Assembly: GCF_947623445.1 (NCBI RefSeq)
Contig: NC_135240.1
Coordinates: 10,912,001-10,976,000, forward strand
DNA: 64,000 nucleotides
Direction of reading: 5' to 3'
Source: Clavelina lepadiformis
Taxonomy: Eukaryota; Chordata; Ascidiacea; Aplousobranchia; Clavelinidae
Shown: piece after piece, positions 16,633 to 59,603 of the stretch
Layout of the letters: every line of letters begins with the position of its first letter
Position numbering within the stretch: position 1 is the first letter of the stretch
Program-made: the position numbers and the translations under genes
The notes under the pieces: generated by a model
What the model was told of the DNA's origin: nothing
What the model saw: only the letters and a program-made list of their open reading frames with translations
The model's database searches: none

Positions 16633-17049
16633 CTAAGTCAGTGTATATTGCAGATATGTTAATTATGTCATATTGACCATTTCAATATTGCTGTTGATAG
16701 CAAACTATTCCCTGTTTCTTTCATCATAATAATCAAACGTTCCATATCATAGTCTTTTTTTATGGCAAAGATAAGTAACCAAAGATAGATAAAATATGTC
16801 TACCAAGAAAGCGAATAAGCAATCAAGCAAATGTTAAACTGGTTTGTTCAATTGTAACTCTTCTTTCATGAACTGTCATAGCGGAGCAACCACTCTTTTT
16901 AAAAGAGCGTCCGTCGCTGAAAGAGTGTCGCTAACGCTTCTCGCTAAGAAAAAGCGCATTCTTTTTCGCAATTCAATAGCGAAAGAATATTCACGTGAAA
17001 GATCCGAACCACCATCACGTTAGGTGGTTACTTGTTAATTGCCTTAAGC

Positions 17050-19400
17050 CAGGGGTCGGCAACCTGCGGCTCTTATTAATTTTATTGCTACAGTAGAAAC
17101 AAACAGAAGAACACTCGCGTCTTTATCTCACTGAGCACATTATAGTAAATGAAAGCATAATCATTCTGGTTGTGACGTCATAATTAGTCGATTAACATAA
17201 AGGTTGTTTTTAGCAGTCTACTAGCAGCAGTTAGATTAGACTATTAGAGAGTGCGCAGGCTGTAACAGCCAACCAACTATGAGTAAATCTAAGAAAAGAA
17301 AAGTGTCTGAAGAAAACAAAACGTTCAACGATTCGTGGATAAATTCATTTGCTTTCATTGCTGATAAGACCGGTTTACCAGTGTGCTTAATATGTAACGA
17401 GAAATTAGCAAACAACCAAAAGTCAAATGTTGAAAGACATTTCGAAAATAAACATTTATCTTTTGCTCAAAAATATTCAGGAGATGCAAGAAAAAAAGCT
17501 GTTTTAGAACTAATGCGGAACGTTGATCGAAGCAAACATCAATTTAATAAGTGGATCAAGTCTGCAAATGCCACCACGTATGCCAGTTTTGTGGCCGCTC
17601 AGGAAATAGTAAAGCATGGTCAGCCATTTACTGATGGAGAATATATAAAAAATTCATTCATTAAGATATCTGAACATTTATTCACGGACTTTAGAAACAA
17701 GAGTGAAATTGTGCAAAAAATCCGTGACATGCCACTCTCTGCAAAAACTGTTCAAGACAGAACCTCAAGAATGGCAGAAGACATCTCCAAACAGCAAATA
17801 AAAGATATAAATTCCGCAGTAGCGTACTCTATTGCCTGTGATGAGTCTAAAGACAAAAGTGATATTGAACAAATAGCACTATTTTGCCGATATGTAAGCT
17901 CTGCTGGGCCACAAGAAGAATTAATTGAGTTGATACCTCTGAAAAGCCAAACGCGTGGGGAAGACATATGTGAGGCTGTTTTGGAATGTTTAAGAAAAAA
18001 GGGTATAAATACAAGCCATCTGGTGTCAGTAGCTACTGATGGGGCACCTAGCATGACAGGTGCAAACAAGGGTTTTGTAGCTTTACTGCAAAAGTCTTTG
18101 GGCAGAAAGCTGCTTACTTTTCATTGCATCTTACATCAAGAGGCCCTGTGTGCTAAAACTTTTCCTCCAGAATGCACGGAAGTAATGAATGTCGTCATGC
18201 AAATTATCAATAAAATAAGGGCAAGCCCTTTAAATCACCGTCAGTTCCGTATGCTATTGGACGAAGTGGATAGCATGTACTCTGATCTCTTGTTGTACAA
18301 TAAAGTACGGTGGCTATCCAGAGATGAAGTGTTGAAACGCTTTGTCATATGTTTGAAAGAAGTGAAAACGTTTTTGGACAGCAAAGAGCTTAATTATCCT
18401 CAACTGGAACAGGCGGAATGGCTGGAAAAACTACACTTTATGGTAGATATGACAGCTCACCTAAACGCGCTCAACACAACTCTTCAAGGGAAAGGATGCA
18501 CAGCCCTGCACATGCTGGAAGATGTTTTTGCATTCGAACGTAAGTTCATGGTATATGCCAGAGATTTACAGAGAGGTACATTATCTCACTTCTCTTGTTT
18601 GAGAGAGTTCAAACAAACTCACAGTGGCATTACAATAAATGTGGAATATTTGCAATCCGCAATCATAGCAATGCAATGTTCATTTGGGAAACGCTTCTGT
18701 GAGTTTAGAAAAGAAAAGAAGACTTTATCCTTCTCTGTTTCTCCCTTCAGCAGCGATCCATCGGAACTAAATATGATTGCATTATCAGGTGTGAGTCAAC
18801 CAGATTTTGAACTGGAATTGGCCGACATAGCCGACAAAGACATATGGATATCCAAGTTTAGACGCCTGACAGCTGACCTTGAGGATGTACCCCGTCAGAA
18901 GGCCGATCTTGCTCAGGGTCACAATTGGAGCAAAATTGAAAACCTCCCAAAACCAGACCAATTCATTTTCGAAACATGGAATGCTCTCCCTGATACGTAT
19001 GATAATATAAAAAAGTATGCTCTTGGGACCCTGTCGATATTTGGATCCACATACGTATGTGAGCAACTTTTCTCTAACATGAACTACATTAAAAACAGAT
19101 ACCGCACACGTCTCACAGATGACAGCTTACAATCATGTGTGAAGATGAAGATGACATCCTACAGCCCTCACGTACAGATGCTTTGCAATGAAATGCAAGA
19201 GCAAAAATCACATTAATTAAATCTTACTGAATTAACTGCTTTTATAAATGCGACACATGACAGTTTTGTTACAAAGTGTCGTTTTCGTTTTATTGTGAAA
19301 ATAGTTTTGCAGCTCCCAGTGATTTTTGTTTTGTGGAATATCGGTTAAAATGGCTCTTTAAGTGCAAAAGGTTGCCGGTTGCCCCAGCCGGTTGCCCCTG
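17050..19400 (+). mobile_element. complete hAT transposon (2351 bp)
   Basis: Begins CAGGGGTCGGCAACC and ends GGTTGCC...CCCCTG. Flanked by a perfect 8-bp duplication CCTTAAGC (17042-17049, 19401-19408). It contains one uninterrupted transposase frame. The right terminal repeat carries a 13-bp tandem duplication (GCCGGTTGCCCC units). Perfect duplication plus intact frame argue for recent insertion. Confidence 0.95.
17279..19216 (+). CDS. hAT transposase, ZBED/SCAND3-like, intact
   Basis: 645 codons without interruption. Order of parts: basic N-terminus (KSKKRKV, a likely nuclear signal); BED-type zinc finger with CLIC...ERHFENKH at about residues 38-60; RNase H-like core with first acidic motif ACDESKDKSD (Asp about residue 188) and second VATDGAPSMTG (Asp about 254); and the C-terminal dimerisation/insertion region with FGSTYVCEQLFSNMNYIKN and RTRLTDDSLQS. 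It would cut and paste its own element and possibly the related deleted copies. It belongs to the group from which vertebrate ZBED5/SCAND3/GTF2IRD2-type host genes arose. Since terminal repeats and target duplication are intact, I call it transposon-encoded rather than a domesticated gene. Confidence 0.95.
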   Translation: MSKSKKRKVSEENKTFNDSWINSFAFIADKTGLPVCLICNEKLANNQKSNVERHFENKHLSFAQKYSGDARKKAVLELMRNVDRSKHQFNKWIKSANATTYASFVAAQEIVKHGQPFTDGEYIKNSFIKISEHLFTDFRNKSEIVQKIRDMPLSAKTVQDRTSRMAEDISKQQIKDINSAVAYSIACDESKDKSDIEQIALFCRYVSSAGPQEELIELIPLKSQTRGEDICEAVLECLRKKGINTSHLVSVATDGAPSMTGANKGFVALLQKSLGRKLLTFHCILHQEALCAKTFPPECTEVMNVVMQIINKIRASPLNHRQFRMLLDEVDSMYSDLLLYNKVRWLSRDEVLKRFVICLKEVKTFLDSKELNYPQLEQAEWLEKLHFMVDMTAHLNALNTTLQGKGCTALHMLEDVFAFERKFMVYARDLQRGTLSHFSCLREFKQTHSGITINVEYLQSAIIAMQCSFGKRFCEFRKEKKTLSFSVSPFSSDPSELNMIALSGVSQPDFELELADIADKDIWISKFRRLTADLEDVPRQKADLAQGHNWSKIENLPKPDQFIFETWNALPDTYDNIKKYALGTLSIFGSTYVCEQLFSNMNYIKNRYRTRLTDDSLQSCVKMKMTSYSPHVQMLCNEMQEQKSH

Positions 19401-19408
19401 CCTTAAGC

Positions 19409-21824
19409 TATGCTCCAAGCAGTCAAAATTTTTTTCTCAATTTGAAAAAAGAGCGCGCACAAAAACGAGCGTGTTTGTGCCCATGTCTATGAATTGTTGT
19501 TACAAATAGATTATGTAATTATGCAAACATTCAAGCATCTTTTGATCAAAGTGACTGGAAAAAGTGGTTATAAAACATTTGAAAAAAATCCAACCAGCAT
19601 GCTGGTATAAATACAACAAAAGCAATACAACAATAAAATCAATTTATTTTTAGCACCACTCTGCCAACGGGCCATGGAATTGAGGCTTCGATGTACAATG
19701 GGGTGTTCTACTCTCTTTTTCCTTTGCACTGCTATATTAAAGTATTAAGGCAAGGGGGCAAATACTTCTCTTTTATTCCCCTCCCTCCTTCCTCTGCTTT
19801 CGTTTTCTATGTCTTTCTTTCCTTACGCGCCGTGTATTTTGTTTTCACTGACTGCAGACATGTCGTTCTTATGCCATGTGGGCCCTTTGGACATAAATAC
19901 TCGCTAACCGCACTTACCACTCCATAATCAGGCTGCCGAGCCTACACTTCTGTCTTCTCTGTTAGCATGACGAAAACAGAAAATGACTCTCGTCCTTTCT
20001 ACACTATATGTACAGTCACAGTGGGCTACAACAAAACTAAAACCGCAACACCTTCATAAATAAAATATAAAATTATAGACGCTAAACAGTACAAGCACCA
20101 GGCCTAAACAAAACATGTTTTTTGTCTGTTGTGTTCAATAAATCTCTTTTGTGTCAACGCAAAAAATTATCTCGTGTATTTTTGCATGCGATGTCTATGG
20201 ATTTTAGGCTATAGAAAACATATAAACAAATATTATGTTGTTGGTTGTCACATCCAGCATTTGACATCGTTTTGATAGTTGCTTGACTTCATCTTGAAAG
20301 TTGAAACACCTTAATTTTTTCATTTTGTCGTCGTAATTCTTGCAATTCTGCTGTTTGCTTGCTATAAAAAGTTCGTTGTAGCAACCGTTGTTTACTGGGC
20401 GTTGGAAGACGCTGTTTGCATTGTCTTCCAAGTTGTAATGTTATAATCACGTATCTGCTATTTACCACGCTATGATTGCATAACGTCATACTTGCCATAG
20501 GTTCATTCTCAGTTCACGACATAATTGTTATCCAATGGAAGAATAGTTGATTGACAACCTGTCTCGTAAACAGGTTATCTGCATTGCATAATGAACTCTC
20601 AGAGTTGTAAATAACCCTTGTGAGATCGACAACTTAATGGGTAAACATGTTTTTCTGCTCCATTGACCCCATAATAACCGCATTGTCATTCTAAAATATA
20701 GAGTGTTGATTGGTAATTAATTCCTTCATTAAAGATTCCCTTGTCAAAATTAACACTTAACCTATAAATCTTCGAGTCCAAAACATTTCCTGCTTCAATA
20801 TGCGCATTGTGTTTCTTTAATACTTCCTTTCAGTGTATATATGTACCTTTCCATGCTATAATTTTAGTTTTGTGATAGTGTGAATTTGAATGAATGAGAA
20901 AGAGATAGGCCTAGATCCTAACAGCTCTGAGTGCAATCTCCTTAAGTGATCTTGTAATGTAGAGAGATGCGCTTTGATTCCAATTGCGTTCTTAAAATCC
21001 TTTTTCTATGATCAGTAATATTGCTGTAGTTTCTCGTGTTTGTCCAAAGTAATGAAGAAGAGCATTAAAAAAGAAATTAATCAGATTTTCAGTATTTAAT
21101 ATTATATATATATAATCTATTGAACAGTTGTATAGGGAATTTCTAGACAGGATTCACAACCTTTTAATTGTTCTTAAGAGTCAGATTGCAATACAATAAG
21201 ATAACTGTGGAATGCACTAACCAGCGTATACCAGCTTCAAGGGGTCACCAATGTGGTGGTCGAATAGTTAAGAATCCAGATTACGAGTAAGGAAGGTTGC
21301 GTTTCTTTCCAGTGAGAGCGTGTTGTCTCAAGCGTAGATTACCTGAACAAATCAGACTCGTGAAAATCGAACTTGCACTGTTGATCTCGTCCGCTTGAAC
21401 GATAAGTACGCATGCAAACGATTAAATACCGCGCATACCACAAACATCAGCTCAGACCATAGATAATATACAAACACGTGTGCTCATACAATGTCCATAG
21501 CGCAGGCACAATCTAATGTATATGTCCAAGCGATGTCCGCAAAATCACTGAAGGGTGGTACCGTGGCCGCCACAGCGACTTCCATTATTATAGTTATCAA
21601 AATATTTCTACATCTATTTATTTTTATCAAAATATTTGGGTATGCATCAATTAACCCTAACCAGTATCTATTTTAGAAAATGCAGTGCAAATTGCAATTT
21701 TGACAACGTAAACATCTATTTCGGGTAATGATAAATCAAATGTGTTATATCCATTCTCTTACTGGAGAGCATTAAGCAAACCTAGATCCGTTTCGACTTT
21801 GTTACCCCGTAAAACACATATCGA
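19409..21824. other. intergenic, no gene recognised
   Basis: Only noise reading frames. A possible decayed tRNA-like SINE head lies at 21247-21320 (GGTCGAATAGTTAAGA then GGTTGCGTTTC). A short AT dinucleotide run occurs at 21103-21114. Confidence 0.45.
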
Positions 21825-50100: not shown

Positions 50101-53100
50101 TATTAAGGTGGCAATCTTATAGGACACATGAAAACAATGTTGTACATCATATAAAAGTATATGGAAAAAAATTCAAACATCATACATGATAGATTACATA
50201 CAACTCAGTTCGTAGTCATCAAATACTCTGCTGACATCACAAATGTAACTTATTTGTTGAAACGTGTTTACCATACATAAAATGTCTAAATGGTGAATTA
50301 AAGTGAATACATAAAATTACTGCATGAAAAACATACGTTTAGTCACAAACGTCAAGTATTGTCAATTATTTGAGGTGGTTGATTCAGTAAGCTTGCAATA
50401 TAGGATTTGTTCTTCCAATGATTAATTGTTATTGATAAGTCATAAAATTATTATTTTCCTTTCATATGTATTTGTTATTTTTTATTTTTAGCTGTATTGA
50501 AAAAAGACTTGAAATGTGTAAAAGCCAGAATCAAGTGAGTGCTAGTGTTTCACTGATTATTGTGAAATGCTTATTGTTGTAGTAGAATCCTCTTAATGAA
50601 CCCAAAATCCAGCTACCTTTTACCGTATTTTCTTGAATAGAAACTGCACAATTTCATTAAAAATAAACAATAGAAGCCGTATACATGTAATAAAAATAGA
50701 AGCCGCACAAAACGTTCAAAAATAAAAAATAGTAGCCGCGGTTTCTATTCAAGAAAATACGATAATTCCAATTTACTGGGGGATAATCAGAGGCGGGCAA
50801 CTGCTCTTCACAAAGAGTGTCGCTTGTCAATGAGAAAAATAACGACACACATGCTTTCAGGCTTCTATAAAATAGAGTGCGCTCGTTACTTTGTTGTCTC
50901 GCTCTCACATTTTGAGCAATTAAAAAATGTTTTTACTCCAACATATTTTCGAAAACCAATCGCATTCGTATTTTGCAATTTTGCATTGTAAAATCAGTGT
51001 TTAACTGTAATCTAATAATTGCTTATCATTATTTATTATAAATCTTAGAAAATTTTATAAAATACAATGTTGAAAGGTTTTAATGGTTTTGGTCACACCT
51101 GACACAAGTGATTGATAGACAAGTGTTAAGAACCTTTTAGAATTGTAAATGCCAACGTTTTTTTCATTTTTCGCTTTCAACGCATTGGTTAAGCTAGAAA
51201 AGTAACGGCAATGTAAAGCAAATTACGACACCATAACAATAACTCGGCCATCTGTGTTAACCTCTCTGTCATTGACCGTTTTTAACAAAACGTTTATAGC
51301 GAACCATCGTCACGTGGTTCTGCTCTGCTTAGTGTTGCGTGTTGTATTGTTTACTTTTCGCCATTAACTTTGCGGAGCAAAAATTGTGCATGAAATTAAT
51401 CTCACAGCAGTCATTTTGTATTCAGTACATAAAATTATAGTCATGGCTTTCCACAAGCTTAAATATGTTTTATATCCAACTAAATATGTTCATTATGTGT
51501 TTTCGCTAGTTGTTTGTGCAAAAAAGAGCAACAAGCAAAAAACCCTTCAAAAAGAGCATGTTTGTGGTTTCATTCTTCCTTTGAACAAATAGTGTCGCTC
51601 TTGCGATCGCTTCTAAAAAAGGAGCTCGCTCAAAATTTAACGAGCTCGTACCCAGCTCTGGGGATAATGTGATTTTGGATGGTGCATTAGAAATGTTGTA
51701 GTTTTAAAATTGTTAGCAACTTTGAATAGCTACATCGATTGCAATCCTTCTTGGTAAAAACAATTGCTTCTTCAAAAGAGACAGCCACTTCCACGTATGT
51801 ATGTGAACTTCCACGTATGTATTTTTGTAAACAAAGATAACTCACGAGTAACGAGTCAACTCTGAACATTCAATCTCATTATTGTTAACGAGTGCCAGTC
51901 TTTTGCTTTATCTGTTTCTTTCCTAATGAATGACTGCTTTTCAGTATGTTAGTTTTGATTTAACAAAAACTGCAAACCATGCACACACATTGCAATGCTT
52001 TTTGCTTTTTTCTATCTGGACAAGATACATAAAATTTTACTGATGTAATTTTAGTTGTTTTGTTTTCTGCAAATATATTCAATGCACCAGCTATTAAATC
52101 TGCCACAAAATTCATTCATCAGCTGGAACCCAGTTGAATTTTTTCTTAAGCGGATTCTGCTATATAAAAATAATTAGTTGCAAGTGGAATGTTCAACTTT
52201 AAAATTTTCTTTCGGGCATTGTATTAATTGGTAAAACAGTTAATTATAAATGATATAGTTACTGTAAGTGATAATGATAACAATGCCTTTTTCATTCCAA
52301 GTAGATAATACTAGATTTAAGTTATTTACGAAGAACATTTAAAGTTGTAGTTGAGGTAGTTCTTAACTTGTTTTAGTAATTGATACTTGTTGAGCAAATG
52401 TGTTTTGTTTTTTTAGCAAACAGACTTCATTATGTCTGGCAAAAGAAAATCGTCCATCTGCCAGGTCTCATATAAAGTCATCATGCAAAAGCATTAAACC
52501 AAGTCTTAATAAAAACCATGACGTGCCAAAAAAGCGTATAACGTCAAACTTGCTCTTGAAAAAGGATATGGACAAGAAGCACACACCTTTGCTAAAACGA
52601 AGAAGTAAGCTGAACTCACAATCTATCGCACAAACGGCAACCTCGATTGTGGCAAAAAAGCTTCTGAGACGAAGCATAAATACCAGTCAATGCTCATCTG
52701 CCAAAAAAGCAAAAATCCAATCAGTTCTGCTGGCACAAGAAAATGAACTTATAAAAACTCCAAAAGTAGTGAACAAATCTTGTTATACAACACAATCGGC
52801 TAAGCTTTGCAAAAAGACTGAAAAAAGTTCCTTATTCAGGAGCACAACTCCAGGACCGAAGCCTAAAAAAAGAGCAACTCTGTTTGAAAAAAGCGAGCGA
52901 CTGTAAGTGTAATAGCAAGATTACCTACCAACAATAAAGAAAACTTTGTTCCTTTAACTAAGCAAACATTTCAATATTAAGGGAACAACTTCGGTCATGG
53001 ATGATATCTAAAGGAAAAGATCCAAATAAATTGTTTGGTTTTAAGCCCGTAAAAACGATGGTTACTCCTGTCAACTCTCCAGCGAGAAATAGTCCAGCTA

Positions 53101-56100
53101 GAAATAACGTCAATCAATCACAGTGGCCAGTATGTATAAGTTCTTGAAATGCAATGTCTGTGGAGTATGAAGTTGAGACTTTTTATAACGATTTTTCTAT
53201 GTCCTTAAAGACCCTCCGTGATGAAGACTACCATGATGAGCTCTCCGTATTGGTAAAACAAACGATGAAGGAAGCGCAAGATTGCCTGGAAAGGGTATAT
53301 ATATATTAATAAGCCATATTTTTGAAAACTCGTGTTTTTGGCCTTTTACTGAGTATTTTTCCTTAACACAGGGATGTGCAGTGGATGAAGTATATGCAGA
53401 ACTTATGGAGTTTCAAGAAAAAGTGCCAATAGCAGATCGACATGCATCGTTTTGGATTACACTTGCTCTGGTGTCAGATAAACTTGACAAAAAATCAGAA
53501 GAAGTGCTGGAGTTGTATGAAAAAGCTATCAAAAAGAACGCTGAGGTTCCGCAAGAGAAAAAAATTGACATTTTGTACTTGTTTAGGATATTTGATGTTT
53601 GAAAGCTAATTCCTACTTAATTTAATTAATAACTTTAAATATTGCATCATTCTATCAACACATTTGAATTATAGCCTACCCAAGACATCAAGGAGGCTCT
53701 CAGGACCTACATTTCATCTAGGATTGAAAAAAAACCTTATTGCAAAGGAAATGAAGTTCAAGGTACAGCTTAATGTTATTAAGTGATTATTAGCGAAGTT
53801 TGTTTTTGTACAGATTTTGAACTATTTAACTTGATAAAATGCATTGTTTTTTGACATAGCTTACTTGTGGAGTTAAATTAGTGGTCAGCAAACTTTATTC
53901 AATGGCCCAAATTCTCTCTTTAATAATAAAGACTCAAAATTACATGTGAAACATGCATTGTAATACATACTGCAATAACTATCATTAGCTAACTGATCAT
54001 TTCCATGTACTATTCTCTTTTTCGCAGCAGATTTCTTTTGTTGAATTTATTGGGATTTAACTTCGATTAACCTAATTATGCACTTTTCACTGGTTTTAGT
54101 GAGATTGCCTTCAATTAACAAACAGTTAACAAATGAAAATACACCTACATCACTAATGTTAAGTTGTAACAAGAAACCAAAATATGCCTCAGTTGGAGTT
54201 GGAATCCGACTAGGCTGCCCTAATCTTAACATCTCAATCATGAGATTTGAAATTCTGATTCAGCTTTCAAAGTTATTGGAAATCATCACTGATAAAATAA
54301 AGCTCTTCTATGTACACCTGTTTGTTGATAAGTTTAACATAGATATTCTTCATTCACCTTCTGTGAATGATTTAACTGTGCCATCATCATTAATTGTGCC
54401 ATCACAATTGGTAAAGATAAGGTGAAGTGAGAGACGGGCAGGGGTGCTCCTTTTGCTAGAAGCATAGACACCTTAAATAGAAGGACTAGTAACTCGCACT
54501 CTCGGGTTACGGAACTTGGGTCCCAATCACAGATACTAGTGCGCCGTCACAGATTCTCAGGTGTGCCGCGAATCTTTTGAATTTTGGAAAAGAACTGTAT
54601 AAATATTTAAAATAAGGCATGCAGACAAGCATATGTGACTTTAAAGCTTTCTAACTGCTTCAATAGCTGATAAATAAGCACATGTGACGATGAAACCAAT
54701 TATAGGCTATGGCAATGCCGATAGAGTAGGGTAATTTTTTAAAGCAACTTTTCTTTTTTTCTATTTCATAATCGGAACAAAGTTTTTTCAGGGGTCTCTG
54801 TTAATAACACACAATGCCTAAGAAATGTAATGTATATGGTTGTCGAGGCAATTACAGGGAGGAACCGTACTCTAAAGTGGTATCATTTCCAACTGATGAA
54901 GTAGAACGAAACCGCTGGATTGATGCCATGCCAAATGAACGTTCTAGTTTGCTACAGCTTAAGCAGATCTATGCTTGTGCTAATCATTTTGACTGTAAAT
55001 GGATTTCAGTTAAAGGTGGAAAAAGACCAAGCCAACCACCGTCCATTTTCCCTGGAGTTTTAAAGTCATGCTTAAAGCAGGTCTCCTCAGCACCCAGAAC
55101 TAGGCCTAGAACTGCTTCAGCAGAGGCGAGAGCTGAAAAGGAACGATTCCGTACTGAAGGCCTGGATAAGATAGCTGACTTTTCTTCTTTTTGTAATGAA
55201 ATCAAGCAGCATTTCTCAAAGGATCATCTTTTTTTTTGTGATAGTGATGACATTTACATTTCTAAAACTGATGCAAAAGGACGTTCTGTTATTCAATTTC
55301 TTCATTTTCAACGCGTTCAATCGTCATTTGGATTTTTGCATCTTAAATGTGTTGAGAAAAATGGAAAGGACATACCTAAAACATATTTTTTCAAAGCTGG
55401 TTGTCTGCAAAAGAATAGCCTTCTTAGTAAGTGGTCACAGTTAGACAAAATTCTGTCATGCATTACTGAGTATGAGTTCAAAGATACAGACTATCTAAAA
55501 AGTGCTGTAGAGGAATTGAATAGCATGAGCTGTTCTGATTCGCCTCATTTCCAGTTTATTTATGCTCAGTTACAGTTACTGCTCACTCCTCCAGAAGGTC
55601 GACGTTTTGACAAAAATCTTTATATTCTTGCTGCCGAACTTCATAACATTTCTCCAGCTGCATATAAAATGGTACGAAAGTCCGGTTCAATTGTTTTACC
55701 GAGAGTGGAACTGTTGAAAAAACTACTCTCCTGTAGTTTCCATGATGAAAACTTAGAGCAACTTTTCCAAAAGCTTCAACCTCAGCAGTGTCTCGTCAAC
55801 ATTCTTTTTGATGAAGTAAAGCTCACAGAAACACTTAGGTACTCAGGTGGTCGTGTTGTTGGTTATGCGCAAAATGGTTCTGGTGATACCGAAGTTCTTG
55901 CAACACATGCTTTGGTGATTGAAGTTGTCTGCCATTTTGGTGGCCCTAGATATATACTACGCATTTACCCTGTTGCAAAACTTAATTCAGATCAACTCAA
56001 GAAAATTCTATTGGAAGCTCTAGTAGCGGTAAAAAATGCTGGTGGTAGTATAATTTCTTGTGTAGGTGATAATTGCAATACAAATGTTGCAGTTTATGGT

Positions 56101-59100
56101 AAATTACATGGCCCTGGTAAAGTCTTTATTGACGCTATAAATTCTTATGCTTTCCTTGTTTTTGACTACGTTCATTCTTTTAAAAATATAAGAAATAACT
56201 GGATAACGGTGCATGATAAGGAACTTTCTTTCACAAAAGATGGAAACACATATATTGCACGATGGAAGGACATAGAAGCACTGTACAATGAAGACCGGAA
56301 AAACAGCATCCGTCTTACCAAGATCACATACACAGCTGTGTACCCAAAATCTTTGCAGAGACAAAGCGTGCCTTTTGTATGCCAGATCTTCAATGACAAG
56401 ACAGTTGCTGCTCTTTCAACTCTAAAGGATAAACTTGGCATTAACGAGGGCACCATCATTTTTGTCAAACTCATCACTGATTGGTTTCACATGATGAATG
56501 TGAAAGATCGATATTCTGGTATTAACATGCGTGATGAGTGTCGTCAACCATGGACCAAGAACTGCACTAGTTTCAAGAAACTTAATGAAACTTGTGACAT
56601 TATATCCTCTTGTGCATGGTCAGGTGGTCGAGGTCGGACGCAGAAGCTTACTAATCAAACTGCAGAAGCATTTGTAGTGTCTACAAGAGCCAACATCGAA
56701 GCCGCAGAGTTGCTACTGACTCAGCACAACTTCATCTACGTTCTACCTGGTGTGTTTGCTGATGAGGCCCTTGAAAAGTTCTTTGGTCAAGCCAGACAAC
56801 GCAGTGGAGGTAATTTCTATATTGACATTGTAGATATCAAGGCAGCTGCAAAAACCAAAAATCTCCATGCACTTTTAAAATATGAGTCAACTCCGTGCGA
56901 GTCTCATGATGTGCCTTGCACCTCTAACATTTGCATTGATGATGATCAATTTGACATCACCATTGCTGACACTGAAGACCTAGTGCAATCTAATGACAGT
57001 GTCAAGCATAAATGTATTTTTCTAGCTGGATATTTGGAACACAAATATCCAGCTAATATCTTGTGTATCGAAACTGAAAATGATGACGACCATCGGATTA
57101 ATTCGGAGTTTCTCACAAACTTAAATAGAGGTGGACTAACTGTACCTCTACTCTCAACAGTACATTTTGTACACTCAGCCTATAAACTGTTTGGTAAGTG
57201 CAACTTGCATTGCTGCCGAGCTCATCTCAGCCATGCTTTGCGTCGTATTGATAGTCCAATGGTTGTAATTCAAGGAGCATGTCTTACTTTATCAAACATT
57301 CTTTTGAAAGCATTTGTGCTTGACAACAGTGACAAAGAAAGACAACTCGGCTGTTTGAGAAGAAAAGAAAAACTCTCTACTAAAAACTGAACAAGTATCT
57401 TTAGTATGCCAACAAGTATTTTGATTACTCATTTCTACAAATTTCATTGTTGTTTGTTGTTGTTTTTCATAGTTGTTTCACAAATTTCATTGTTGTTTGT
57501 TGTTGTTTTTCATTGTTGTTTCACAAATTTCATTGTTCGTGTTGAAATATTCAGGCTAAACTGTCCATGAATACATTTTAATTCAGTCACAGGGGAACAT
57601 ACTGTGTGTTTCAGTTGTTTAAGTGGGAAAATATGCAATATTTTGAGTGATTTTGGACTATTTTTTCGTGATTTGACCTTTAGATGACCTTTAGATGACC
57701 TTCAGATGACCTTGTAGAAGGTTAAAAGTATGAAAAAGTAATTCCTCACCCTTCAAAACCCCCCAAGAGACACCAGAATGAAGGTTTTACCATGTATTTG
57801 ACACAAATTATGATGGGACCCAAGTTCCAACTTGGGACCCAAGTTCCAGATACCGAGCATAGAAGTTACCAGTCCTTCTATTTAAGGTGTCTATGGCTAG
57901 AAGTGACTTTAAGAACAACGCTCGATTTCAAATTAACTCTTTTTTAAGAGTAATTTGCTCTCTGCTTTTTTATTGCACAGACAAGGTCACAAGCACACAT
58001 AATAGATAAAAAACGGTTAGATTTAAAACAATTTAAGTTTCTGGACGATTTTAAGACTCTAATTTCACGTAGTGTACATAATAACTGCTTTGAGACTAAT
58101 TTCACGCACAATTTTTGCTTTGCAACGTTAAAAACAACTGTGAAAAACAAACAATGCATTACGCTAAGTCGAGTTGTCACCAAAGTTAATGTCATAATTT
58201 GGTTCACTTTGCCATTATTTTGTAAATTAACCAATGTATGCCTTGGAAGTGAAAAATATTAAATTATTTGTGGTAGGTGCCACCAAAACAAAACTCTTTA
58301 ACATTGCATTCATGAAATTTTGTAACATTGACAACAAATAACGATAAGCAATTATTAGGCTACAGTAAAAGACCCGTGTTACAATGCAAATCTGCAAAAT
58401 ACAAATACGATTAGGTTTTGAAAATGTGCGGGAGTGAAAGTATTTTTAATGGCCAAAAAGAACAGGAGCATGAGCAGCAAAATCAGTGCACTCTTTTTAA
58501 TAGAAGAGTGAAAGCATGAGTGACACTTTCTTTCCCAGCTCTGGATGCTGTATATGACAAGTATTATAAGTAGAAACGTACTTACATTCTCAATATGACA
58601 TAAGAATTGATGCTATGTAAGTGGGAGGTTACTGCTTACTTTTTACAGATGTTTGCAATTATGGCTGTAATTAACTACATAAATTGAAATGGACAAAAAT
58701 CATTAAGTAGTGGTCCTATTTAGTTGGACTTTAGAAAAAACACTGAAGCTCTCATATTGCCCTTAGTTTTTTATTACAGGGTATAGTGTGCGGACCATTA
58801 TATTTTGACACATTTGGGTCTTGGCTCACAATTTGCTGGCCACTCAGTTAAATTCTGCATCAGTTTGTTTTGGAAATAAAAAAATAATTTCTATTACCTT
58901 TGTAACCATGTTAAACTTTCTTCAGGTAACATCCACGTTGGTAATGAACAAATTGTTATACCTGAGTCAATACAAAATGAATGTCATCTTCCTGTGGCAC
59001 AATCTAAACCAGAAGCATTGCCTTCGTCTTGCAATATTATTGATACCAGAGAGGTCCTTAAGTCAGCATTGCCATTATCTCCAATGGTTGTTGCCTCTCC

Positions 59101-59603
59101 ATCCTCAGTTGTTAAGCTTAGGATGATACCAAAGTCATCACCAATTTTCAAAAAGTAACATCTTTTATCCAACATAGCTGTTATCTTGTTACCAAGTCCG
59201 AATGATCAACATATTTACTTAACATTCTTTCAATTTATAATGTTTGCCTTATTGAAATTTTGTTTCACAAATCAGTCCTTGGCTATGTTAGTTGAAATGA
59301 TTAGGTGTTATGTTACAGTGTAAGTATTATATATCTTGTTATGATTCCAGATTAATGACCCGGAAAGCATTACCAGCTGATGTCACTGCTATTGTGACTC
59401 CAGTTAGAAGGTCAAAGAGAATAGAGAAGTTTAATAAACATTATCCCAAAGCATTACTTGCCCATGATTCCTGTGTAACAACTCCAATGGAATTGATGGA
59501 AGCTGAAATGAATTCTGAAAATAAATCTTATGACTTTGCCTTTGATCGCAATAAAGCACTTGGTGATGGCTATGCAGATATTTCAACCATATTAAAGTTC
59601 TAG
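47135..59603 (+). CDS. CKAP2/CKAP2L-like mitotic spindle protein
   Basis: Ten exons: 47135-47141, 48657-48803, 50492-50534, 52417-52902, 52982-53129, 53211-53294, 53372-53545, 53675-53762, 58926-59154, 59351-59603; 552 residues, all phases consistent. Family landmarks: an N-terminal LEKLNAYLISKGRPPK motif, a long basic Ser/Lys-rich middle, the second RLEQLRSWMISKGKDPNKLFG motif (residues encoded around 52990), an alpha-helical block with HASFWITLALVSDKLDK and ELYEKAIKKNA, and the C-terminal TPVRRSKRIEKFNKHYPKAL ... FDRNKAL segment. CKAP2-family proteins bind and stabilise spindle microtubules in dividing cells. The donor at 53545 (GAG|GTTCCG) is non-optimal and the least certain junction. The 5.2-kb intron 53763-58925 holds three nested transposons. 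The first coding exon carries only 7 coding bases. Confidence 0.85.
50623..50761. mobile_element. short palindromic pogo-like MITE (139 bp)
   Basis: Inverted ends CCGTATTTTCTTGAATAGAA and its complement (TTCTATTCAAGAAAATACG). Interior repeats AATAGAAGCCG. TA precedes the left end. Lies in an intron of the CKAP2-like gene. Confidence 0.8.
50788..51660 (+). mobile_element. hAT-type non-autonomous element, copy A (873 bp)
   Basis: Ends CAGAGGCGGGCAACTGC and GTACCCAGCTCTG, perfect 8-bp duplication GGGATAAT (50780-50787, 51661-51668). AAGAGTGTCGC / GTGTCGCTCTT motifs lie near the ends. A diverged inverted copy (copy B) lies at 54.4-58.5 kb. No transposase homology seen in its frames. Confidence 0.88.
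54814..57390 (+). CDS. P-element transposase (THAP domain), intact
   Basis: 858 codons, single exon, similar in length to THAP9 (about 900). The N-terminal THAP zinc-binding domain occupies residues 1-82: Cys5, Cys10, Cys55, His58, Trp35 and the closing PSIFPG. Then a helical/coiled segment (95-130), the P-element transposase core with NILFDEVKLTETLR (Asp near 333), SCVGDNCNTN (Asp near 419), and VFADEALEKFFGQARQRSGGN (Glu near 654), which together look like a complete RNase H-like acidic triad; the region between the second Asp and the Glu corresponds to the GTP-binding insertion of the family. It catalyses cut-and-paste movement in the nucleus using GTP as cofactor. Intact termini mean it is a transposon gene, not a domesticated THAP gene. 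No introns were needed to keep the frame open. Confidence 0.95.
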   Translation: MPKKCNVYGCRGNYREEPYSKVVSFPTDEVERNRWIDAMPNERSSLLQLKQIYACANHFDCKWISVKGGKRPSQPPSIFPGVLKSCLKQVSSAPRTRPRTASAEARAEKERFRTEGLDKIADFSSFCNEIKQHFSKDHLFFCDSDDIYISKTDAKGRSVIQFLHFQRVQSSFGFLHLKCVEKNGKDIPKTYFFKAGCLQKNSLLSKWSQLDKILSCITEYEFKDTDYLKSAVEELNSMSCSDSPHFQFIYAQLQLLLTPPEGRRFDKNLYILAAELHNISPAAYKMVRKSGSIVLPRVELLKKLLSCSFHDENLEQLFQKLQPQQCLVNILFDEVKLTETLRYSGGRVVGYAQNGSGDTEVLATHALVIEVVCHFGGPRYILRIYPVAKLNSDQLKKILLEALVAVKNAGGSIISCVGDNCNTNVAVYGKLHGPGKVFIDAINSYAFLVFDYVHSFKNIRNNWITVHDKELSFTKDGNTYIARWKDIEALYNEDRKNSIRLTKITYTAVYPKSLQRQSVPFVCQIFNDKTVAALSTLKDKLGINEGTIIFVKLITDWFHMMNVKDRYSGINMRDECRQPWTKNCTSFKKLNETCDIISSCAWSGGRGRTQKLTNQTAEAFVVSTRANIEAAELLLTQHNFIYVLPGVFADEALEKFFGQARQRSGGNFYIDIVDIKAAAKTKNLHALLKYESTPCESHDVPCTSNICIDDDQFDITIADTEDLVQSNDSVKHKCIFLAGYLEHKYPANILCIETENDDDHRINSEFLTNLNRGGLTVPLLSTVHFVHSAYKLFGKCNLHCCRAHLSHALRRIDSPMVVIQGACLTLSNILLKAFVLDNSDKERQLGCLRRKEKLSTKN
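57438..57536 (+). repeat. 43-bp tandem repeat, about 2.3 copies
   Basis: ATTTCATTGTTGTTTGTTG... unit repeated with CACAAATTTC joints, just after the transposase stop and inside the P element. Confidence 0.85.
57674..57713 (+). repeat. 11-bp tandem repeat, 3.6 copies
   Basis: TGACCTTTAGA units, nearly exact, in the 3' part of the P element. Confidence 0.85.

Follow-up and report, generated by a model that had tools for sequence, protein, structure and literature searches.

An intron of a CKAP2-type gene of Clavelina lepadiformis almost certainly carries three DNA transposons of the cut-and-paste kind, nested in an ordinary way: a non-autonomous hAT is interrupted by a second hAT-like element (copy B) that is itself split by a complete P element. 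The analysed stretch of 64,000 nt (C1:10912001-10976000) is called the window, and relatives of each layer were sought in the whole genome (209 Mb, 95 contigs). The three nested layers that an earlier note had read from the letters of the window were recovered: the target duplications of the outer hAT and of the P element match at 8/8 positions, and 28 of 42 distinct relatives of the outer element lack B. The assignment hAT > hAT > P within a CKAP2-like intron is supported by the exact duplications for the first and third layers, by the B-less relatives for the second, by Pfam matches, and by a predicted spliced frame that stays open across the intron. Feature coordinates are given in Table 1.

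Table 1. Features of the nested insertion and of copy A, with positions counted from the first letter of the window
Feature	Position	Strand	Remarks
Host intron of CKAP2_C-domain gene	53763..58925	+	GT..AG ends; flanking exons join in frame
Outer non-autonomous hAT, whole	53879-58845	+	Starts TAGTGGTCAGCAAACT, finishes ..TTTGCTGGCCACTC
Outer hAT, left target duplication AGTTAAAT	53871..53878	.	8/8 with 58846-58853; central TA as in the family pattern nnnTAnnn
Outer hAT, right target duplication AGTTAAAT	58846..58853	.	8/8 with 53871-53878
Outer hAT, left part, including left copy of the decayed duplication of B	53879..54428	+	82.6% to family consensus, 530 nt
Outer hAT, right part	58552..58845	+	80.3% to family consensus, 238 nt
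Copy B (hAT-like), putative left duplication GGTGAAGT	54421..54428	.	5/8 with 58544-58551
Copy B, short piece left of P, including left GCTAGAAG	54429..54462	-	Aligns near copy A end
Copy B, larger piece on the right side of P	57904..58543	-	Aligns to copy A and genomic relatives
Copy B, putative right duplication GATGCTGT	58544..58551	.	5/8 with 54421-54428
Complete P element, 3433 bp	54463..57895	+	Terminal inverted repeats 31/32 nt
P, left target duplication GCTAGAAG	54455..54462	.	8/8
P, right target duplication GCTAGAAG	57896..57903	.	8/8
P transposase frame, 858 codons	54814..57390	+	THAP, TNP-like RNase H N and TNP-like GTP-binding domains
P, subterminal repeat GGAACTTGGGTCCC	54511..54524	+	Also present in inverse orientation at 57815 and 57834
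Copy A, unsplit relative of B	50788..51660	+	CAGAG..CTCTG ends; exact 8-bp duplication GGGATAAT on both sides, 8/8

Host intron and outer hAT

The last four exons of the host gene (53372-53596, 53675-53762, 58926-59154, and 59351-59603) form a single open frame with a terminal stop, and the two that flank the intron (53675-53762 and 58926-59154) are predicted from their letters to join in frame; the earlier note had described the host exons as left intact. The first three exons, as bounded here, contain stops in all frames, and joining was seen for the last four only. Three exon translations from upstream of the nest, joined by hand as one query, matched CKAP2_C (PF15297) over the cut-off (E 2.6e-12), and the match of the final exon (8.5e-5) was below it. 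The donor at 53597 (GTTTGA) fits the consensus weakly. The intron measures 5163 bp, or 188 bp after subtraction of the outer element and one copy of its duplication. The nest would be removed by splicing along with the intron, and it may have been kept because an insertion in an intron is tolerated.

The terminal inverted repeat (TIR) of outer-family relatives elsewhere in the genome starts mostly with CAGTGGTCGGCAAACT. For the 15 copies with both ends placed, the duplications agreed at 8/8 positions in eight, 7/8 in four, and 6/8, 5/8, and 2/8 in one each, and the central TA was present in 14 of these copies. A coding partner was looked for by eye, using exact TIRs only, and no pair among the 42 sites was seen to bracket any of the best 150 of 666 Dimer_Tnp_hAT candidates. 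Five members of the family (L034, L037, L045, L057, and L065) have alignment gaps of hundreds of bases, which suggests more nested insertions or subfamilies.

Another hAT of the window, at 17042-19408, has an 8-bp duplication CCTTAAGC (17042-17049 and 19401-19408) and an open 645-aa frame (17279-19216) with a Dimer_Tnp_hAT match over the cut-off. Its outermost bases seem to differ from those of its family, because the relatives among the matches listed aligned only from base 16 to base 2328 of the 17050-19410 query.

Copy B and the order of insertion

Both halves of B align to the intact copy A, as had been claimed: with the P flanks joined, 499 of 621 aligned bp were identical in a gapped global alignment, and a local alignment gave 62.5% identity over 733 columns, gap columns included. 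The 24-nt piece left of the P element (54439-54462), whose failure to align with a copy A terminus the earlier note had named as a refutation, fell at its expected position near that end, with a score equalled or exceeded by 1 of 2000 shuffles. The piece itself thus stood and its boundary did not, the left terminus of B being placed about 10 bases away at 54429/54430, where gAGAGACGGGCA resembles the CAGAG..GGGCA end of the family. The ends of B (CAGAG..CTCTG type) are recognisable, one of them with an altered first base. Its duplication reaches a level of agreement found in 4.5% of random 8-mer pairs from the outer element; it is decayed and, taken alone, unconvincing. Among seven other loci of the A/B family (L002-L008), a duplication pair of 6/8 was found in two and none at that threshold in the other five.

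The case for the middle layer as an insertion is decided by outer relatives that exist without B. Forty-eight loci were examined, six were second cuts of the same place, and spanning was defined as at least 30 aligned bases on each side; under this definition, 28 of the 42 distinct relatives lack B and run unbroken across its site, with insertions of 0-11 bases and deletions of 0-22 bases at most 40 bases from the junction, and the remaining 14, which align piecemeal or partly, were left uncounted as uninformative on B. The reading that B is no insertion at all and belongs to the original interior of one outer subfamily would fit its poor duplication (5/8), but it is at odds with these relatives, with the presence of A/B-family sequences at many other places, and with copy A as an independent insertion that has its own duplication. 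On such comparisons it appears largely refuted, and we give it very little credence. Matched pieces of the A/B family, query included, number at least 48 and at least 57 (best 40 of 378 and best 40 of 177 candidates scored). Still more improbable is the joining of unrelated repeats by an assembly artefact; the basis is indeed a single assembly, but the duplications of layers 1 and 3 are exact at base level, layer 2 has empty-site relatives, and the accessible text of the genome note for the species gives 117-fold HiFi coverage and a QV of 67.4 (PMC10884593).

No clear coding partner of the A/B family was seen by eye among 100 of the 138 exact CAGAGCTGGGCA sites when these were compared with Dimer_Tnp_hAT hits; two sites (C2:494949 and C2:13062505) lie about 2 kb from such a hit, and the opposite end is absent among the sites listed. 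A short element with 28-nt inverted repeats that are 93% complementary (50620-50765) adjoins copy A upstream.

The favoured sequence of events begins with the insertion of a Buster-type non-autonomous hAT, which made its 8-bp duplication; copy B, a non-autonomous hAT-like element from a different family, would then have inserted into it, and a full-length P element would later have entered B. Transposase supplied in trans presumably moved both hATs, and the P element presumably used its own enzyme or that of a sister copy. Because of the nesting, P came after B, and B came after the outer element existed. The clear order that had been claimed earlier holds for these two steps and not for the presence of the outer element in the intron when B entered. 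Rough divergence parallels the nesting (outer element 17-20% from its consensus, B 14%, P 0.03-0.23% from its sisters). The outer copy of the window, at 82.6 and 80.3% identity to its consensus, lies below the range of the 28 relatives from which that consensus was made (83.2-94.6%), and B is 85.8% identical to the A/B consensus compared with 86.2-89.2% for the nine copies that built it. These figures are to be read knowing that builders are closer to a consensus by construction and that a subfamily can mimic age. The duplications run against age alone, with 5/8 for B and 8/8 for the older outer element.

It is this pairing of a perfect outer duplication with a decayed inner one that keeps another history in play, in which B joined the outer element elsewhere, the two reached the CKAP2 intron as a composite, and only P was added there. 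Nesting gives no date for arrival in the intron, and such a contrast is expected if B had aged inside the outer element before the latter arrived. The composite history is nevertheless unlikely in our judgement, as B is absent from all 28 spanning relatives and no sister composite was found among them (a weak point, since cut-and-paste movement need leave none), and the outer copy has diverged more than B.

The P element and its family

The innermost layer had been described as a complete P element that splits B and has a duplication, and it was recovered as such. All three Pfam matches of its frame were over the cut-off (THAP 3.1e-6, TNP-like_RNaseH_N 9.9e-14, and TNP-like_GBD 2e-7); the C-terminal RNase H part had no Pfam match in the frame. 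A phmmer search against solved structures, with E up to 1, returned no P transposase; its two hits were THAP2 (0.013) and a ribosomal protein (0.65). D333, D419, and E654 were picked by eye as candidate catalytic residues, and the subterminal repeat is a candidate transposase-binding site. The non-coding 3' part of the element contains direct repeats at 57437-57522 (two of 43 nt) and at 57674-57713 (three overlapping repeats of 18 nt, spacing 11 nt).

Five full-length copies were found, the window copy included, with 0, 1, 3, 4, and 8 differences from it over 3433 positions (99.77-99.97% identity for the four sisters), and the 858-codon frame is open in all five. The element thus appears to be young, with near-identical full-length sisters. 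A sixth copy of 3379 bp (97%) has two stops. Copy number is a lower bound, as the best 40 of 256 candidates were scored. Twenty loci were examined; four had an unplaced end, and exact 8-bp duplications were present in 15 of the other 16, with T at position 3 in 13/15 and A at position 6 in 10/15. Four of the five open copies have exact duplications; the exception, L012 (C5:23015572-23019004), has unmatched flanks (GCTCCACC / CTTGAAAC) and is perhaps a rearranged or aberrant insertion. In a protein search for further P families, in which the best 53 of 151 candidates were scored, the matches listed have 76-100% identity and are read as this one family. Among the 20 P loci, only that of the window (L009) matched the outer or A/B queries, so there is no sign of a nesting preference of P, with the proviso that diverged copies of these hosts may have been missed.

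Internally deleted copies that keep both ends are also present (e.g., L015, L017, L018, L020, L021, L023, L027, and L028). Two of these, L027 (C6:1370368) and L028 (C1:23300030), are identical 2734-bp elements with the same breakpoints and the same 20-nt filler. They lie on separate chromosomes, their 8-bp duplications differ, and their left flanks match at 28 of 100 bases, roughly the level of chance. A defective derivative has therefore transposed. The P family is recently mobile and may still be moving. That it is mobile now, with five near-identical copies still intact, a defective derivative carried in trans to two chromosomes, and an insertion in the window so young that it would be polymorphic in nature, is a proposition to which we assign slightly less than an even chance. 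Perhaps the family was acquired horizontally.

Comparison with known systems

The outer family resembles the Buster hATs and the MITEs of that group, such as Mar of Drosophila, in its 8-bp nnnTAnnn duplications and in being short and non-coding; the accessible text on the Buster group gives the same duplication consensus and includes Mar of Drosophila among its short non-coding elements (PMC3517528). It differs in its host and in its own TIR CAGTGGTCGGCAAACT, with no transposase sharing this TIR found among the sites compared, and it was assigned here from the duplication pattern, whereas placement in the Buster group normally follows transposase phylogeny.

The P element of Clavelina shares with animal P elements (Drosophila P and zebrafish Pdre2/THAP9) the 8-bp duplications, the terminal inverted repeats, a transposase with THAP, RNase H, and GTP-binding parts, and the coexistence of full-length and internally deleted copies, traits covered in the accessible parts of PMC7776569 and PMC10983969. 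Drosophila P has several joined frames, whereas the Clavelina element has a single frame; its terminal inverted repeats (31/32 nt) compare with 31 bp, perfect, in Drosophila and 13 bp in zebrafish, as stated in the portion of PMC7776569 available; and zebrafish has one full-length THAP9 gene, unlike the five near-identical open copies of Clavelina. P elements are on record in Ciona and zebrafish, and those of Ciona are mentioned in the accessible text of both sources (PMC7776569 and PMC1562414). Among the non-subscription papers listed on P elements, Ciona, tunicates, and THAP, which are reviews and studies of insects, zebrafish, or humans, no title or opening of an abstract names a P element of Clavelina.

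The nest is a clean record of insertion, yet such records are common; of most use is the P element at its centre, which gives evidence of a chordate P family that is young and was recently mobile. Whether P has moved of late or still moves in a tunicate can be tested directly by genotyping, given the five near-identical open copies, four of them with exact duplications. A paper on the P elements of Ciona is reportedly due to Kimbacher (2009). Neither nested transposons nor P elements of tunicates are new, and the nest is real but ordinary. Like nested transposons generally, it has the younger inside the older and can be used for ordering insertions; it differs in nothing essential, only in the combination hAT > hAT > P. 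If it is mobile now, the P family of Clavelina lepadiformis might be the natural equivalent, in a chordate, of the P system of Drosophila.
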